Below, in pieces: positions 30,671 through 61,870 of a DNA stretch of 64,000 nucleotides; the first letter of the stretch is position 1; the number at the start of each line of letters is the position of its first letter. The stretch spans positions 1-64,000 of the forward strand of contig JAGHZU010000009.1 of the NCBI GenBank assembly GCA_017745235.1, given 5' to 3'. The notes beneath the pieces are model-generated. The model did no database searches and was not told where the DNA came from. It saw only the letters and a list, made by a program, of their open reading frames with translations. The position numbers and the translations under genes were made by a program. Origin of the DNA: Caulobacter sp. Lineage in GTDB: Bacteria > Pseudomonadota > Alphaproteobacteria > Caulobacterales > Caulobacteraceae.

Positions 30671-32248
30671 TTAGGCCAGCACGACCTTCCCATCCACGCG
30701 CCGGGCGATGCCCAGCGGGTTGGCGTCCTGCAGTTCGGCCGGCAGCAGGGCCGCCGGGACGTTCTGGTAGGAGACCGGACGCAGGAAGCGGAAGATCGCC
30801 AGCGAGCCGACCGAGGTGGTGCGGCTGTCGGAGGTCGACGGGAAGGGGCCGCCGTGGACCATCGCGTGGCCCACCTCGACGCCCGTGCCGAAGCCGTTGA
30901 ACAGCACGCGGCCAGCCTTCAGCTCCAGCGACGGCAGCAGGGCGCGGGCCAGGTCGGCGTCGGCCTCGTCGGCGTGGACGGCGATGGTCAGCTGGCCTTC
31001 CAGGGCGGTGATGACCTGGGTCAGCTGAGCCAGGTCCTTGGCGCGCACGACCAGCGAGGCCGCGCCGAAGATCTCGTCCTGCAGGTGCGGGGTGGCCAGG
31101 AAGGTGGCGGCGTCGACGCTGAACAGGGCCGCACGGCCTTGGCCGTGGCCGCCTTCCAGGCCGTGGGCCACTTCGTCGACGCCCGAGGTCTCGGCCAGCG
31201 CCTTCACGCCGTGCGAGAAGGCCTTGCAGATGCCGGGGGTCAGCATCTGGCCGGCCGGGGCCTTGGCGATCACCTCGGCGGTGGCGGCCAGGAAGGCGTC
31301 AAGCTCGGGGCCGTCGATGCCCAGAAGCAGGCCGGGATTGGTGCAGAACTGGCCCGCGCCCTGGGTCAGGGCGGCGACGAAGTCGGGAGCGATGGCTGGG
31401 CCGCGCGCCTTCAGGGCGGCGGGCAGCAGCAGCACCGGATTGATGCTGCTCATCTCGGCGTAGAACGGGATCGGCTCGGGACGGCCCTGGGCGATGGCCG
31501 TCAGGGCCAGGCCCGCGCGGCGCGAACCGGTGAAGCCGGCGGCCTTGATGCGGGGGTCGGCGACCAGGCCTTGCGAGATCTCGACGCCGGCGTCGTGCAG
31601 CAGGGCGAAGACGCCGGCGGGCAGGCCGGCTTCCTTGACCGCTTCCTGGATGGCGCGGCCGACCAGTTCCGAGGTGCCAGGGTGGGCCGGGTGGGCCTTG
31701 ACCACGACCGGGCAGCCGGCCGCCAGGGCGCTGGCGGTGTCGCCGCCGGCCACCGAGAAGGCCAGGGGGAAGTTGCTGGCGCCGAACACGGCCACCGGGC
31801 CCAGCGGCACGTTGCGCAGGCGCAGGTCGGGGCGCGGCAGGGGCTTGCGGTCGGGCTGGGCCGGGTCGATGCGGGCCTCCAGCCAGCCGCCGTCGCGCAG
31901 GACGCCGGCGAACATGCGCAGCTGACCCACGGTGCGGCCGCGCTCGCCTTCGAGGCGGGGACGGGGCAGGCCGGTCTCGGCCATGGCGCGCACGATCAGA
32001 TCGTCGCCGATCGCTTCGATCTTGGCGGCGACGGTTTCCAGGAACGCGGCGCGCTGCTCCGGGCTGGTGTGGCGGTAGGGGCCGAAGGCGGCAGCGGCCA
32101 GGGCGCAGGCCTCATCCAGGTCGGCCGCCGTGGCGCCGCCGAACGCGGGAGCGAGCGATTCGCCCGTGCTGGGGTCGATCGCCTGGATCGAACCGCCGGT
32201 TCCGGGGCGCGCGGCGCCGCCGATCAAGAGTTCACCGGTGATGGACAA
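30671..32248 (-). CDS. NADP-dependent alpha-ketoglutarate semialdehyde dehydrogenase
   Basis: A 525-residue aldehyde dehydrogenase of the 2,5-dioxovalerate/KGSADH type. Visible are [33 protein letters not shown], the Glu in [12 protein letters not shown], and the catalytic Cys in [12 protein letters not shown]. It oxidises alpha-ketoglutarate semialdehyde to alpha-ketoglutarate, the last step of non-phosphorylating pentose or hexarate pathways. A TTG start at 32248 is preferred, with AGGAAGG upstream; the in-frame ATG at 32293 lies about where transcription should begin. It is divergent from a LacI regulator whose likely operator overlaps its promoter. Confidence 0.9.
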
Positions 32249-32299
32249 GGGAGCGATCCTTCCTGCTGCTGATATGTTCTGGCCCGAGGGCATCCTTAA

Positions 32300-32324
32300 A
32301 TGATACCGCTCCCATGCGCGTCAA
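32300..32324 (-). promoter_or_regulatory. KGSADH promoter with overlapping LacI-type operator
   Basis: On the minus strand TTGACG (32324-32319), a 13-base spacer and TATCAT (32305-32300) form a Caulobacter-style housekeeping promoter. The imperfect palindrome TGATACCGCTCCCA (32301-32314 on the plus strand) covers the spacer and -10. It resembles the CG-centred sites of LacI proteins such as Caulobacter XylR. A LacI gene starts 82 bases away. Confidence 0.6.
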
Positions 32325-32395: not shown

Positions 32396-33448
32396 ATGGC
32401 GAAGCGGCCGGCAACGATCATTCATGTGGCCGAGAAGGCGCGCGTGTCGGTCAAGACCGTCTCGCGGGTGCTGAACAATGAGCCCAACGTCACCCCCGAC
32501 CTCAAGGCGCGCGTCCTGGAGGCGGTGCAGAAGCTGGGCTACAGCCCCAGTAAGGCCGCCCGGGCCATGGCGGGCTCGCGCTCCTACCTGCTGGTGGCCA
32601 TCAACGACCGGCGGCTGACGATCGACAACTGGCGCAGCGAACGCGGCAACGAGTGGATCGACCAGATGCTTTACGGCGCGATGCTGCGCTGCGAGCAGTC
32701 GGGCTATCACCTGATGTTCGAGCTGGTGGATCGCGAGTCCGACGACCTGGAGCGGCAGATCACCTCGGTGCTGTCGTCGCTGCAGCCCGACGGCGTGATC
32801 CTGACGCCGCCCAACTGCGAGAACCCGGTGATCCTGGGGGCGCTGAAGAAGCGCAACATTCCGTTCGTGCGTCTGAACACGCCGGTGCGCGGGCAGGGGC
32901 CGCGGGTCTACATGGACGACCGCGCCGCCGCCCGCCAGGCAACGAAACATCTGCTCGGGCTGGGTCACAGGCGGATCGGCTTGATCGCCGGCGACTATCG
33001 CTTCTCGTCCTCGATCCAGCGGGTGGAGAGCTATGCCGAGACCCTGGCGGGCGCCGGCATCGAGGCTCGGGACGACTGGATCTACAAGGGCGACTTCACG
33101 TTCGAGGCCGGCGTGGCGGGGGCCAACGCCTTGCTGGACCTGGCCGAGCCGCCGACGGCGATCCTGGCCTCCAACGACCAGATGGCGCTGGGCGTGGTCA
33201 GCGTGGCCCAGGCCAGGGGCGTCCCCGTGCCCGACCAGCTGTCGATCATCAGCTTCGACGACACGATCGGCGTGAGGCTTAGCGTGCCGTCTCTGACGGC
33301 CGTGCGTCAGCCGGTGGCCCGAATGGCCGAGACGGCGACCGACATGCTCATCAACGCCAGCGCCAGCGGGGAAAAATTGAGTTCGAGCAGCACGCTGGTG
33401 CCGTTCGAGCTGATCGTGCGCGCCTCGACGGGACGCGCGCCGGCGTAG
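32396..33448 (+). CDS. LacI family transcriptional regulator
   Basis: A 350-residue LacI-type repressor. The HTH and hinge are at residues 1-60 (TIIHVAEKARVSVKTVSRVL, NNEPNVTPDLKARVLEAV, KLGYSPSKAARAM). The sugar-binding fold follows (LVAINDRR, GVILTPPNCENPVILG, GLGHRRIGLIAGDYRFSSS, ILASNDQMALGVVSVAQARG). It probably represses the divergent KGSADH gene, and possibly the GH3/TonB receptor genes downstream, in response to a sugar or sugar acid. It is followed by a hairpin terminator. Confidence 0.93.
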   Translation: MAKRPATIIHVAEKARVSVKTVSRVLNNEPNVTPDLKARVLEAVQKLGYSPSKAARAMAGSRSYLLVAINDRRLTIDNWRSERGNEWIDQMLYGAMLRCEQSGYHLMFELVDRESDDLERQITSVLSSLQPDGVILTPPNCENPVILGALKKRNIPFVRLNTPVRGQGPRVYMDDRAAARQATKHLLGLGHRRIGLIAGDYRFSSSIQRVESYAETLAGAGIEARDDWIYKGDFTFEAGVAGANALLDLAEPPTAILASNDQMALGVVSVAQARGVPVPDQLSIISFDDTIGVRLSVPSLTAVRQPVARMAETATDMLINASASGEKLSSSSTLVPFELIVRASTGRAPA

Positions 33449-33492: not shown

Positions 33493-35742
33493 CTACTTGC
33501 CGTCGTACGACACCGGCAGGGACTTGGCCGCCAGGGTGACGTCGGTCTTGCTCGTCAGGTCTCGCGAGGAGGCGCCCAGCGACACCTCGTAGGCGCCGGC
33601 GGCCACGTTCCACGTCTTGGCCTTGGAGTCGAAGGTGGCCAGCAGGCGCGGGTCCACCGTGACGCTGACGGTGGTGCTGGCGCCGGGCGCCAGGTCCACC
33701 TTCTTGAAGCCAGCCAGGCGGCGGGGCGCTTCCCAGTCCGAGCCGGCCTTGGGGCCGACATAGACCTGGGGCACGTCCTTGCCGGCGGTCTTGCCGGTAT
33801 TGGTGACCTTGAAGCTGACGGTCAGCTTGCCGCCGGCCGACGAGGCCTTGAGGTCGCTGTAGCCGAAGGTCGAGTACGACAGGCCGTGGCCGAAGGCGAA
33901 CAGCGGCTGGTGGCCCTTCAGGTCGAACCACTTGTAGCCGACGGCCGCGCCCTCGATGTCGTAGTTGGCGTCGACCATCAGCTCCGGTTGGGCGTGGTCG
34001 CCGTCGATCACCGGGCGCGGCAGCTGGGCCGCGGCGGCGGGGAAGGTCACGGGCAGGCGGCCCGACGGGTTGACCTCGCCGGTCAGAACGCGGGCGATGG
34101 CCTCGCCGCCGTTGGTGCCCGGGAACCAGGCTTCCACCACGGCGCCGACCTTGTCGAGCCAGGGCATCAGCACCGCGCCGCCCGTCTCCAGCACCACGGC
34201 CGTCTTCGGATTGGCCGAAGCCACCGCGTCGATCAGGGCGTCCTGGTTGTCGGCCAGGGTCAGGGAGTAGTCCTCCGACTCGGCCGCCCACTGGTGGGCG
34301 AAGACGATGACCAGGTCGCTCTCGGCGGCCAGCTTGGCGGCCGCGGCCGGATCGGTCCCGTCGTTATAGGTGACGGTCGCGCCCTTGGCCCGGGCTTGCA
34401 GGGCCTTCAGGGGCGAGTTGGGGTGGTAGACGATCGGACCGGGGAAGCCCTTCGGGCCCAGGCCCTTCACCGCCATGCCGCCGATCGGGAACACCTGGGA
34501 GGAACCGCCGCCCGACAGGACGCCGACATCGGCGTGCGAACCGATCACGGCGATCTTCCTCGCCGTCGACGCGACGGGCAGCAGGGCCTTGTCGTTCTTC
34601 AGCAGCACGATGGCCTCTTCGGCATCGGCCTGGGTGATCTTGGCGTGGGCGGCGAAGTCGATCGGGCCCTTGACCACCGGGTGGTCGAACAGGCCATGGG
34701 CGAACATCGAGCGGGTGATGCGGCGGGCCATGTCGTCCAGGCGCGCCTGCGGCACCGAACCGTCGGCCACGGCGGCCTTCAGCGGCGCGCCGAAGAAGGG
34801 CTGCTTGTCGAAGGTGTAGGCCGACTCCTGGTCCAGGCCCGCATTGGCGGCCTTGGCGGTGGAGTGCGTGCCGCCCCAGTCGGACATGACGTAGCCCTTG
34901 TAGCCCCAATCCTTCTTCAGGACCTCGTTCAGGAGCCAGTCGTTCTCGCAGGCGTAGGTCGAGTTGACGCGGTTATAGGAGCACATGACCGAGCCGGGGC
35001 TGGAGTTCTCGATCGCGAACTCGAAGGCCAGGAAGTCGGACTGGCGGGCGGCGGCGTCGCTGATGTTGGAGCTGACCGTCATGCGGTTCGTCTCCTGGCC
35101 GTTCAGCGCCCAGTGCTTGATGGTGGAGATGATGTTGTTGGACTGGATGCCGCGGATCTGGGCCCCGACCATCACGCCGGCCAGCAGGGGATCCTCGCCG
35201 CCGTACTCGAAATTGCGGCCGTTGCGGGGGTCGCGGGCCAGGTTCACGCCGCCGGCCAGCTGGACGTTGAAGCCCGAGGAACGCGCTTCCGAACCGATCA
35301 TCGCGCCGCCCTTGAAGGCCAGCTCGGGATTCCAGGTGGCGGCCGTGGCGATGCCGGCGGGCAGGGAGGTGCGCTCCAGGTAGGGATCGCTCGACTCGCG
35401 TTGGGTGGCCACGCCGACGCCGGCGTCGGTTTCCCATTGGGGAGGCACGCCCAGGCGCGGGATTCCAGGGATGTAGCCCGCCGAGCCCATGCGGGCCTCG
35501 GGCGAGGGGGTGAACTTCGGCTTCTCCTGGTTCGAGCCGAAATAGCCGAACACCAGGGTCAATTTTTCGTCCTGCGTCATTTGCGCAACGATCAGGTCGG
35601 CGCGTTGGTCGGGTGAAAGCTTGGTGTTCATCCAAGGTTTCGAGGCCGTCGCGGTCGCCGTCTGCGCGTGAGCGACGCCCATCGGCAGCGCCGTGCTGAG
35701 CATCAAGGCCATCGCCAGGCCGCGCATTTGCTGTCGTTTCAT
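33493..35742 (-). CDS. Secreted glycoside hydrolase family 3 enzyme
   Basis: A 749-residue GH3 enzyme with a signal peptide (MKRQQMRGLAMALMLSTALP, cleavage after AHA near residue 26). Next come the TIM barrel with the nucleophile Asp288 in GYVMSDWGGTHST, the second alpha/beta domain (VIGSHADVGVLSGGGSSQVF), and a C-terminal fibronectin-III-like domain (VPQVYVGPKAG). GH3 enzymes release beta-linked glucose or xylose from the ends of oligosaccharides, likely in the periplasm here. It is divergent from a TonB-dependent receptor, which suggests a joint uptake and hydrolysis unit for a plant glycan or glycoside. Confidence 0.93.
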   Translation of the reverse strand: MKRQQMRGLAMALMLSTALPMGVAHAQTATATASKPWMNTKLSPDQRADLIVAQMTQDEKLTLVFGYFGSNQEKPKFTPSPEARMGSAGYIPGIPRLGVPPQWETDAGVGVATQRESSDPYLERTSLPAGIATAATWNPELAFKGGAMIGSEARSSGFNVQLAGGVNLARDPRNGRNFEYGGEDPLLAGVMVGAQIRGIQSNNIISTIKHWALNGQETNRMTVSSNISDAAARQSDFLAFEFAIENSSPGSVMCSYNRVNSTYACENDWLLNEVLKKDWGYKGYVMSDWGGTHSTAKAANAGLDQESAYTFDKQPFFGAPLKAAVADGSVPQARLDDMARRITRSMFAHGLFDHPVVKGPIDFAAHAKITQADAEEAIVLLKNDKALLPVASTARKIAVIGSHADVGVLSGGGSSQVFPIGGMAVKGLGPKGFPGPIVYHPNSPLKALQARAKGATVTYNDGTDPAAAAKLAAESDLVIVFAHQWAAESEDYSLTLADNQDALIDAVASANPKTAVVLETGGAVLMPWLDKVGAVVEAWFPGTNGGEAIARVLTGEVNPSGRLPVTFPAAAAQLPRPVIDGDHAQPELMVDANYDIEGAAVGYKWFDLKGHQPLFAFGHGLSYSTFGYSDLKASSAGGKLTVSFKVTNTGKTAGKDVPQVYVGPKAGSDWEAPRRLAGFKKVDLAPGASTTVSVTVDPRLLATFDSKAKTWNVAAGAYEVSLGASSRDLTSKTDVTLAAKSLPVSYDGK

Positions 35743-35876: not shown

Positions 35877-35905
35877 TTGACAACGTTGTCGTACTGTAGC
35901 TATGC
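35877..35905 (+). promoter_or_regulatory. TonB-receptor promoter with LacI-type palindrome
   Basis: TTGACA (35877-35882) is followed after 17 bases by CTATGC, a plausible -35/-10 pair. The perfect 12-bp palindrome GACAACGTTGTC (35879-35890), with the central CG typical of LacI-family operators, overlaps the -35. It lies between the divergent GH3 and TonB receptor genes and could control both. Confidence 0.6.
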
Positions 35906-60019: not shown

Positions 60020-61060
60020 CTAGTTCAGCCGGCGCTTCTTGAGCAGGCTGTTGCGGTCTATGGAGCGCACTTCCATTTCGAACACGTCCTCCTCGCGCAG
60101 CACGCGCAGGGGGATGGACGCGCCCGCCGGGCCTTGGGCCCACAGCTGGCCGTAGAACTCCGCCAGGTTCGACACTTCGATCCCGTCCACCGCCAGGATC
60201 ACATCGCCGGGGCGCAGTTCGGCGCGGGCGGCCGGGCCGCCGGGCGAGACGCCGACGACCACCACGGTTCCGTCCAGCTCCTGGGCGAAGACGCCCAGCC
60301 AGGGCCGGGGCGGATGGGCGGGGCGGCCGCGCGCCAGGTCGTCGAGGATCGGCGGCAGAAGATCGATCGGCACGTACATGTTGATCGCCTTGGCGCCGTG
60401 CTCGGTGCGCCCTTCCAGGCTCAGCGATCCCAGCCCCACCAGGTCGCCCTTGGGGCCGATCAGGGCCGCGCCGCTCCAGTGCGGGTGGGCGGGCTCGGCG
60501 ATGATGGCGTCCTCCAGCAGGTACTCCCAGTAGCCGGCGAAGGGCATGCGGGCCAGGACCTGACCGGCCATGGCGTGCGAGCGGCCGCCGGCCCCTGCGG
60601 CGATCACCCCTTGGCCGGTGTTCAGGTCGCGGGCGCTGCCCAGCGTCATCACCGGCAGGTTCAGGGGCTCCAGCGCCTGGACCAGACCAAAGCCCGTCTG
60701 GCTGTCGATCCCCAGCACATGGGCGGGCACGCGGCGGCCGCTGTTGAGGGTCAGGGTGACGTCGGCGGCCTCGGTGACCAGGTAGGCCATGGTCAGCACC
60801 AGGCCCTCGGGACCGATGACCACGCCGTTGCCCAGCCGTTCGGTTCCCAGGATGCCTGCGGTGTAGGCGTCGGGCGGCACGGTGGCTTCGAGGGCGACGA
60901 CCGCCGACAGCGCCCGATCCAGATCGAATCGATAGGCGTCGGCCGTCGGCCTCAGCCGCGCTTCGACTTCGTGACCCTGGAACGGTGAGCTCAAGCCAAT
61001 CTCCTGTTTAAGACTGGAATCTGGGCTCGCCGACGCGTCGGACAAGGGGGCGGGGCTCAC
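60020..61060 (-). CDS. HtrA-like PDZ protein with a degenerate catalytic triad
   Basis: A 346-residue protein of the S1C/HtrA family with trypsin-like fold (GNGVVIGPEGLVLTMAYLVT) and one C-terminal PDZ domain (WLGVFAQELDGTVVVVGVSP, ARAELRPGDVILAVDGIEVS). The catalytic His is replaced by Tyr93, and the position of the Asp by Gly123. Only Ser196 (PHWSGAAL) remains. No signal peptide is apparent. It is therefore likely proteolytically inactive and may act as a binding or chaperone protein in the cytoplasm. The frame is complete with good codon use, so this is not simple decay. Confidence 0.85.
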   Translation of the reverse strand: MSPAPLSDASASPDSSLKQEIGLSSPFQGHEVEARLRPTADAYRFDLDRALSAVVALEATVPPDAYTAGILGTERLGNGVVIGPEGLVLTMAYLVTEAADVTLTLNSGRRVPAHVLGIDSQTGFGLVQALEPLNLPVMTLGSARDLNTGQGVIAAGAGGRSHAMAGQVLARMPFAGYWEYLLEDAIIAEPAHPHWSGAALIGPKGDLVGLGSLSLEGRTEHGAKAINMYVPIDLLPPILDDLARGRPAHPPRPWLGVFAQELDGTVVVVGVSPGGPAARAELRPGDVILAVDGIEVSNLAEFYGQLWAQGPAGASIPLRVLREEDVFEMEVRSIDRNSLLKKRRLN

Positions 61061-61129: not shown

Positions 61130-61156
61130 TTGCGAAATCCAATGGTACCGCTACCT
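61130..61156 (+). promoter_or_regulatory. Promoter and LacI-type operator of the candidate small RNA
   Basis: TTGCGA (61130-61135), a 14-base spacer and GCTACCTA (61150-61157) fit the Caulobacter housekeeping promoter style (TTGACG-N10-14-GCTANAWC). TGGTACCGCTACCT (61143-61156) overlaps the -10. It matches the KGSADH operator TGATACCGCTCCCA at 11 of 14 positions and resembles the LacI-type palindrome TGGTAGCGCTACCA. Confidence 0.55.
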
Positions 61157-61161
61157 AGGTC

Positions 61162-61247
61162 CTCGTGAGGCGCGTGTCGCCTCTGCCCTTCCTGGGCGTT
61201 TCCTCCCTAATGAACTGGCCCGGCCGCAAGGCCGGGCCTTCTTTTTT
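61162..61247 (+). ncRNA. Candidate trans-acting small RNA
   Basis: A plus-strand RNA between minus-strand genes: hairpin GAGGCG-CGTGT-CGCCTC (61167-61183), hairpin GCCC-TTCCT-GGGC (61185-61197), an unpaired segment GTTTCCTCCCTAATGAACT, then a Rho-independent terminator GGCCCGGCC-GCAA-GGCCGGGCC (61217-61238) followed by TTCTTTTTT. No plus-strand protein gene lies upstream, so the terminator must serve this RNA. CCUCCC is complementary to Shine-Dalgarno sequences. Likely length about 86 bases. Confidence 0.75.
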
Positions 61248-61252
61248 GGTCC

Positions 61253-61870
61253 CTACCGGAACGTGCGAAAGGTGACCGAGTAGCGAAGGGCGTCCAAGGG
61301 CGGGATCGAGTGTTCCCAGTCGGTGCGGCTGGGGCCGTCGAGCATATAGGCCGAGCGTGGCTCCACCCGGGCGGTGGCCCGGTCCCAGCCCTCACCGCGG
61401 CGACGACGCAAGCGAAATGGGCAGGCGGCCAGAAGCGATACGCCGGCGATCTCGCGGAACTGCGGCCGATCGCGATGCCAACCGATGCCCGCGCCGGGCG
61501 CGTATTCCAGCACCAGCACCTGCCGGAAGGCCTCGGCCTCCAGGCCTGAGAAGGCCGCCACCTTGTCGCGCAACGGCAGCAGGAAGTCGGGAATGGCCGC
61601 GGCGGGCTCCAGCACGTGCCGCGCGAAGTCGTAGCGCCAGCCGAACGACACCACCCGCCGCGCGCCGGTGTAGCCGTGGAACTCGAACGGCTTGAACGGC
61701 AGCGCCTCTATGTGGCGGACCAGGGCCTGCTCCTCGTCCCGGCCGATCAGTTCGGGCCGATAGCGGAAGCCTTCGGGCATGGCGGTGGTGGCGGGACGAT
61801 CCGGCGGCAGGTCGAAGAGGCTGGGCTGCAGGCTCGGCGCGAAGGTCGGGCCCGGAAAGGGAACAGGCAT
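61253..61870 (-). CDS. alkB: AlkB family alpha-ketoglutarate-dependent dioxygenase
   Basis: A 205-residue AlkB-type enzyme. It shows the iron-binding triad His132 and Asp134 (GWHRDRPQF) and His187 (DWEHSIPP), and Arg residues in RYSVTFRTFR for 2-oxoglutarate. It directly reverses N-alkyl damage in DNA or RNA by oxidative demethylation. A perfect LexA box overlaps its predicted promoter 16-30 bases before the start codon, so it should be SOS-induced. It converges with a small RNA terminator at 61238-61247 and follows the siderophore-interacting gene. Confidence 0.92.
   Translation of the reverse strand: MPVPFPGPTFAPSLQPSLFDLPPDRPATTAMPEGFRYRPELIGRDEEQALVRHIEALPFKPFEFHGYTGARRVVSFGWRYDFARHVLEPAAAIPDFLLPLRDKVAAFSGLEAEAFRQVLVLEYAPGAGIGWHRDRPQFREIAGVSLLAACPFRLRRRRGEGWDRATARVEPRSAYMLDGPSRTDWEHSIPPLDALRYSVTFRTFR

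Follow-up and report, generated by a model that had tools for sequence, protein, structure and literature searches.

The best described relatives of the locus considered here are the αR8 small RNAs (sRNAs; suhB/MmgR, Rfam family RF00519). Four such siblings in C. crescentus, SisA to SisD, are enriched with Hfq, have in common the 10-mer UUUCCUCCCU, and both pair with and are titrated by CrfA; SisA is recognised by the neighbouring gene for N-formylglutamate amidohydrolase (FGase) and repressed 8 of the 10 reporters tested, including those for xylX and for TonB-dependent receptor genes (PMC12559287). PhaR, a PHB sensor, binds the S. meliloti mmgR promoter at the site CAATTGTGCACCGCAGCATTA (PMC12542648). 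Two sugar regulons also bear on what follows, here as given in the accessible portions of the respective papers: the XylR protein of C. crescentus binds a xyl-box, published as TGGTAGCGCTAACA, and is released from it by xylose (PMC10380989), and zwf heads an operon that is predicted to be under GluR control in Caulobacter (PMC4052901). The 2025 study of SisA-D left open, in its available text, why four similar sRNAs with "unrelated" promoters persist (PMC12559287).

An αR8 RNA and its paralogues

The window, by which we mean the whole stretch of 64,000 nucleotides of Caulobacter sp. DNA analysed here, comes from a genome assembly that is 93.7% complete and consists of 167 contigs. Scanned at gathering thresholds, it holds a single Rfam match, to RF00519 at 61178-61253, with 58.1 bits as compared to a gathering cut-off of 41 and with E = 2.3e-9, which is beyond chance. 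A first-pass annotation of the same DNA had proposed an sRNA with a CCUCCC anti-Shine-Dalgarno seed at this place and was right to do so; that reading survives as regards the nature of the RNA and the LacI-type operator in its promoter, and needs correction as regards the family, which is a known one, and the choice of regulator. Judged by its sequence, the window RNA is a member of the known Rfam family αR8 and a paralogue of SisA. Besides scoring above the cut-off it has a predicted single-stranded UUUCCUCCCU after a weak hairpin and a Rho-independent terminator (Table 1).

Table 1. Features of the sRNA locus and of related elements in the window
Feature	Position	Strand	Basis or remark
αR8 small RNA, predicted	61162..61247	+	5' end inferred, ~86 nt; Rfam RF00519 and fold z -4.9
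-35-like element TTGCGA	61130..61135	+	read in the sequence
-10-like element GCTACC, inside the operator	61150..61155	+	read in the sequence; overlap as at this genome's xylX
Operator TGGTACCGCTACCT of XylR type (LacI family), over the -10 region	61143..61156	+	matrix rank and 36 other copies with a site at the matching place
Hairpin 1 (GAGGCG...CGCCTC)	61167..61183	+	predicted fold; double-sided changes among relatives
Hairpin 2 (TGCCC...GGGCG)	61184..61198	+	predicted fold; same stem in a sibling's Rfam alignment
Seed UUUCCUCCCU, the αR8 10-mer, anti-Shine-Dalgarno	61199..61208	+	identical to the 10-mer in the available text of PMC12559287
Rho-independent terminator with U-run	61217..61247	+	perfect 9-bp stem with GCAA loop
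Trypsin-like/PDZ (HtrA-like) gene, neighbour	60020-61060	-	
2OG-Fe(II) oxygenase (AlkB-like) gene, neighbour	61253-61870	-	
LacI-family regulator with GluR-like recognition helix	32396..33448	+	unlikely regulator of the sRNA
Second XylR-type site of the window, TGATACCGCTCCCA	32301..32314	+	before aldehyde-dehydrogenase gene 30671-32293 (-); matrix

Much of what had been read from the letters is borne out. The perfect 9-bp terminator stem lies at 61217-61238 on the plus strand, with a GCAA loop, and TTCTTTTTT then runs to 61247; both flanking protein genes are indeed on the minus strand; and in the minimum-energy fold, which has a z of -4.9 relative to 200 shuffles, the two 5' hairpins are followed by the predicted unpaired segment UUUCCUCCCUAA, which starts at 61199. 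Among relatives hairpin 1 takes the forms GAGGCG/CGCCTC, GAAGCG/CGCTTC and GAGGCT/AGCCTC, that is, with changes on both sides of the stem. As for the Caulobacter-style promoter, the TTGCGA/GCTACC pair is present and is one that we take to fit the Caulobacter housekeeping consensus; a generic sigma-70 scan of the window called no promoter at the sRNA locus. Counterparts of the -35 element (TTGCAA, TTGAAA or TTGCGC) are found at the equivalent place in relatives and before xylX in this genome.

Three αR8 copies score above the cut-off in this genome. The one on contig C33 (C33:127765-127838) adjoins an FGase gene and is the SisA orthologue; the window copy has HtrA-like and AlkB-like genes on its two sides, with no FGase neighbour, and is thus another paralogue. 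Identity with CrfA was considered and rejected, since CrfA is described as having a G/A-rich stem loop that is the complement of the αR8 10-mer, whereas the window RNA carries this 10-mer itself; given this complementarity, the window RNA is likely a partner of CrfA.

A covariance search, a check that the first-pass annotation had itself proposed, found RF00519 copies across the genus: at E <= 0.001 it is matched in 73 of 75 genomes, 68 of which exceed the cut-off at least once, and the matches total 253. Upstream DNA was read for 143 of these and 141 copies were placed, L025 and L216 being dropped with their seeds unplaced; the other 110 matches stand outside the class counts given below, and some of them appeared in the gapped-pattern search. 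Both the stems and CCUCCC, whose absence from relatives was to have spoken against the sRNA, are present across the placed copies. CCTCCC occurs in 136 of the 141 and the exact 10-mer UUUCCUCCCU in 121, counts that are partly built in because the copies were picked by the Rfam model and placed by their seed; a terminator-like stem accompanies 140.

The operator over the promoter and its counterpart at xylX

The letters of the operator were taken from the xylX promoters of relatives and from the xyl-box of a Xanthomonas paper, in its available portion (PMC10380989). When a matrix made from the published xyl-box and the xylX operator alone is run over the 63,987 positions of the window, the site over the sRNA promoter ranks first and the one before the aldehyde-dehydrogenase gene second; with a matrix from 27 αR8 copies of the genus alone (class X, below) the two ranks are swapped. 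Since these two sites head the ranking, the resemblance to a KGSADH operator that had been pointed out is real, whereas the KGSADH label is unconfirmed, the product of 30671-32293 being an Aldedh-family protein with NCBIfam scores far under the cut-offs. At the sRNA promoter the site is identical to the xyl-box in 11 of 14 positions and differs in 3; it has 4 differences from the xylX operator of this genome, and as a palindrome it matches in 5 of 7 pairs. The nearest αR8 copies elsewhere have TGGTACCGCTAACT (G006) or TGGTAGCGCTAACT (8 genomes), with 12 and 13 of the 14 letters of the xyl-box. In view of its differences from both references, the window site may be weak or may be the operator of another PMT-type LacI (L266).

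Counts of loosely matching sites are of little help. A search of the window that allows three mismatches gives 3 matches as compared to 2.27 expected, and the loose pattern TGNTANCGNTANC has 38 matches in the genome as compared to 41 for its reversed control, a count so uninformative that position, conservation and strict patterns were used instead. Among the 38, of which 8 were without a locus to inspect, some precede genes for a GH30 enzyme, a GH43 beta-xylosidase-like enzyme, an arabinofuranosidase-like enzyme and a sugar-acid dehydratase, and others precede genes for a fucosidase, a tryptophan halogenase and TonB receptors; neighbours were read at the operator matches only. Two of five strict-pattern matches lie inside reading frames, and operator matches inside dapB, a peroxiredoxin frame and glucokinase were left out of the support for that reason. 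Elsewhere in this genome (L229:1501-1528, which is C66:38442-38469) a XylR-type TGATACCGCTAACA is found beside a GluR-type TGACAACGTTGTCA before a reading frame of 101 amino acids, possibly a promoter with two sugar inputs.

Strict matches at xylX are more telling. In each of two relatives (G045 and G072) the pattern TGTTAGCGNTANCA occurs 4 times, with 0 for the reversed control, once at xylX, 83 bp 5' of the gene start, and once before an αR8 copy; of the remaining pairs, one precedes a gene like those of GH5 mannosidases and one an unidentified gene. The reading of the gene as xylX comes from its product, which matches a structure of the fumarylacetoacetate-hydrolase family (E = 1e-246) and keto-deoxy-arabinonate dehydratase. 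On contig C112 of the present genome a LacI-family gene (helix VSPMTVSRVIN), a perfect TGTTAGCGCTAACA and xylX follow in a row, the xylX protein being 89% identical to that of the relative, and the promoter, with TTGCGC and the operator over GCTAAC, has the build of the class X sRNA promoters. The computed energy of pairing between the xylX leader and the seed region is -23.7 kcal/mol for the relative's leader and -19.7 kcal/mol for that of this genome. Of 3,980 random windows 1%, and of 130 Shine-Dalgarno-like starts 8%, pair at -23.7 kcal/mol or better, so that the energy is only moderately special and more weight attaches to the published reporter result.

Promoter classes of αR8 copies in the genus

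A XylR-type operator lies over the -10 region in 37 of the 141 placed copies. In 27 of them (class X) it reads TG[TAG]TA[AGC]CG[CGT]TA[ATC]CA, ends 40-42 nt 5' of the seed and overlaps the -10; in 10 others, including the window copy (class G), it reads TGGTA[GC]CGCTA[AC]CT and is placed in the same way. In a further 15 copies (class L) a perfect palindrome, TGACAACGTTGTCA, is found 43-44 nt 5' of the seed and is followed by a -10 of the GCTATA type, and 89 have none of the three patterns. Sorting by operator pattern first is partly circular, in that the fixed letters of a class are conserved by construction, and it is the contrast with the surroundings that informs. For the 27 copies of class X, the left half of the operator, which lies in the promoter spacer, has a mean pairwise identity of 0.96 as compared to 0.48 in the 30 nt before it, and the 14 bp of class L do not vary at all, although identity is 0.38 in the 30 nt before them and 0.35 in the 10 nt after. 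The flanks of the 10 class G copies are also alike (0.69-0.84), for which reason conservation of the operator says less in the class to which the window copy belongs. Perfect 14-mer palindromes centred on CG and with A/T in the half-site are present upstream of 20 of the 141 copies, of which 15 belong to class L, and do not include the window site; in 200 dinucleotide shuffles their mean number was 0.26 and their maximum 3.

When copies are grouped by flanking genes, X, G or L copies occur in 33 clusters of at least 3 loci; 31 of these are pure and the two mixed ones combine L copies with one unclassed copy each. None of the clusters includes the window copy: its HtrA-like and AlkB-like flanks were matched at no other αR8 copy read, the nearest relatives being flanked by GH2 and aldose epimerase genes, and its orthology therefore rests on sequence and not on synteny. 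A scan with the AlkB-like protein gave, in the best 80 of 490 relatives, mostly Mesorhizobium and no C. vibrioides, and left the classes unmatched to SisB, SisC or SisD. Two groups of αR8 copies, each with flanking genes of its own, have promoters outside the LacI-type classes; one comprises L131, L155, L166, L183, L188, L196, L204, L205, L213, L219, L220 and L221, the other L198, L199, L201, L208, L209, L211, L212, L214, L217 and L225.

The SisA-type copies form a set apart, with none of the 59 in class X, G or L. All 59 have a PhaR-like motif, [TC]GCNNNGCA, over the promoter (in 36 it is TGCNNNGCA), and this motif recurs in only 1 of the 82 other copies (0 of the 52 in classes X, G and L and 1 of the remaining 30). 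We infer that it corresponds to the PhaR site of S. meliloti, and a PhaR-family protein (PF07879) is encoded in the present genome. In six SisA-type copies (L168, L178, L179, L181, L182 and L185) a GluR-like CGACAACGTTGTC is found about 95 nt 5' of the seed, upstream of the PhaR-like motif, which may give SisA a second carbon input in these cases; in L169 the palindrome is perfect, CGACAACGTTGTCG.

The GluR-type site can be followed by strict patterns. In this genome TGACANCGNTGTCA occurs 9 times, with 0 for the reversed control, and among its places are one directly 5' of zwf, one before the αR8 copy on C66 and one inside a glucokinase frame. A gapped pattern that joins the GluR-type site with TTTCCTCC is present in 42 of 72 genomes of the genus (reversed control, 0) and, outside the genus, in 1 of 227 genomes of the family, where the letters are unlike αR8; all five of the gapped-pattern places that were fetched scored above the RF00519 cut-off, and a XylR-type copy of αR8 coexists with a GluR-type one in 35 genomes. 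In the 15 GluR-type copies (L003, L193-L195, L197, L200, L202, L203, L206, L207, L210, L218, L223, L224 and L226) hairpin 1 is missing 14 times and the seed end is changed every time, to TTTCCTCCCAAT or TTTCCTCCTATG, alterations by which their set of targets may differ from that of SisA.

Candidate regulators, a proposed circuit and known systems

The reading that we regard as probable is that the window RNA, with its observed family, seed, predicted fold and conserved operator and with the operator observed at xylX, is an αR8 sRNA that XylR represses until xylose or a related pentose appears and that would then act by Shine-Dalgarno pairing, its binding by XylR, its induction by xylose and the targets of this particular copy being presumed. 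We think it unlikely that this is instead an ordinary αR8 sRNA, constitutive or otherwise controlled, whose palindrome combines a Caulobacter -10 (GCTA) with a left half due to chance. Such an account would agree with the imperfect palindrome, the right half of which doubles as the -10, with the lack of enrichment of the loose patterns and with the nearly constitutive behaviour of SisA in C. crescentus, but it does not sit well with a left half that is conserved within the spacer far above its surroundings, with the absence of SisA-type copies from the LacI-type classes, or with the same operator at xylX.

The choice of regulator can be narrowed by the recognition helix, which in LacI-family proteins sets the operator half-site. 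This helix was read for 7 of the 9 LacI-family genes in the genome (all except L267 and L272): it is PMTVSR in the gene beside xylX and in a second gene on C123, a contig with xylan/arabinan-type genes, IKTVSR in a gene near zwf (the GluR candidate), and VKTVSR in the window gene at 32396. The first-pass annotation had named this last LacI as the regulator, which we hold to be very improbable despite its presence in the same window and the similar site between its gene and the aldehyde-dehydrogenase gene; a VKTVSR helix is like that of the GluR candidate and should bind TGACA-type sites, so that the XylR-like gene is preferred. A plausible site for the 32396 protein is TGACAACGTTGTCG at 35878-35891, which resembles a GluR/BglR operator and precedes the start of a GH3 glycosidase gene (33493-35742, minus strand) by 136 bp. 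The second PMTVSR-type LacI (C123:7900, in the xylan/arabinan cluster) has a recognition helix identical to that of the gene beside xylX, and several TGNTANCGNTANC sites on its contig lie beside GH43, esterase and arabinofuranosidase-like genes, as would suit a signal such as a xylan oligosaccharide or arabinose; the relatives' class X copies nevertheless carry the xylX-type operator, and control by this protein seems to us quite unlikely. The likeliest regulator of the window sRNA is thus the XylR-like gene beside xylX. No NCBIfam model matches its product above cut-off, and so its name rests on its place beside xylX.

Under XylR control, the repressor encoded beside xylX, on another contig, would hold the sRNA off through the operator at its -10, and xylose or a related pentose would free both the xylX and the sRNA promoters, so that the sRNA would be produced together with the xylose and xylan genes. 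With Hfq it would use UUUCCUCCCU to pair with Shine-Dalgarno regions and would damp xylX itself, in an incoherent feed-forward loop, as well as outer-membrane receptors for other nutrients while the sugar is at hand; CrfA would clear the siblings in starvation, and sister copies would carry other carbon inputs, PhaR-like in the case of SisA and GluR-like in another. The sugar control that had been suggested from the letters thus holds in principle, by virtue of a conserved XylR-type operator, with repressor binding and xylose induction presumed.

The promoter classes suggest that one RNA exists in sister copies, each under a carbon-source sensor different from that of the others. We lean, with limited confidence, towards a wider view in which an ancient anti-Shine-Dalgarno sRNA has become a multi-input carbon sensor, its copies retaining the same core seed under PhaR (storage polymer), XylR (pentoses) and GluR (glucose/Entner-Doudoroff): any abundant carbon source would raise the seed and shut receptors for other nutrients, the XylR copy would close the xylX loop, and CrfA would reset them all. 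The redundancy of the siblings finds a concrete and directly testable answer in operators that are distinct, conserved and similar to the sites of known carbon regulators; if true, this answer would place a post-transcriptional layer beneath several of the genus's sugar regulons simultaneously.

As far as the open-licence literature was searched, the αR8 family itself is known and no report connects its siblings to separate carbon regulators, no link of this kind and no sRNA member of a XylR regulon having been found there. The XylR regulons of Caulobacter and Xanthomonas (PMC10380989, PMC7198004) resemble the present case in the sequence of the operator and its place in the xylX promoter and differ from it in that the members named in the accessible text are protein genes, whereas the window candidate is an sRNA. 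Likewise, the GluR regulon (zwf-pgl-edd-glk) contains no sRNA as described in the accessible portion of its source (PMC4052901), whereas TGACAACGTTGTCA precedes both zwf and a sibling sRNA here, the motif letters of that paper being left out of the comparison. MmgR is also an RF00519 RNA, with a PhaR-bound promoter site that resembles the SisA-type motif; S. meliloti is said to have no other αR8 sRNA (PMC12542648, available text), and the promoter of the window copy lacks the PhaR-like motif and carries a XylR-type operator. Closest of all are SisA-D of C. crescentus, which belong to the same Rfam family and likewise have the UUUCCUCCCU seed, a terminator and several paralogues per genome; the main text of that report, in its accessible portion, mentions neither LacI, XylR, GluR nor PhaR and describes no motif common to the sibling promoters (PMC12559287), whereas three promoter classes, each with a recognisable motif, can be distinguished here.
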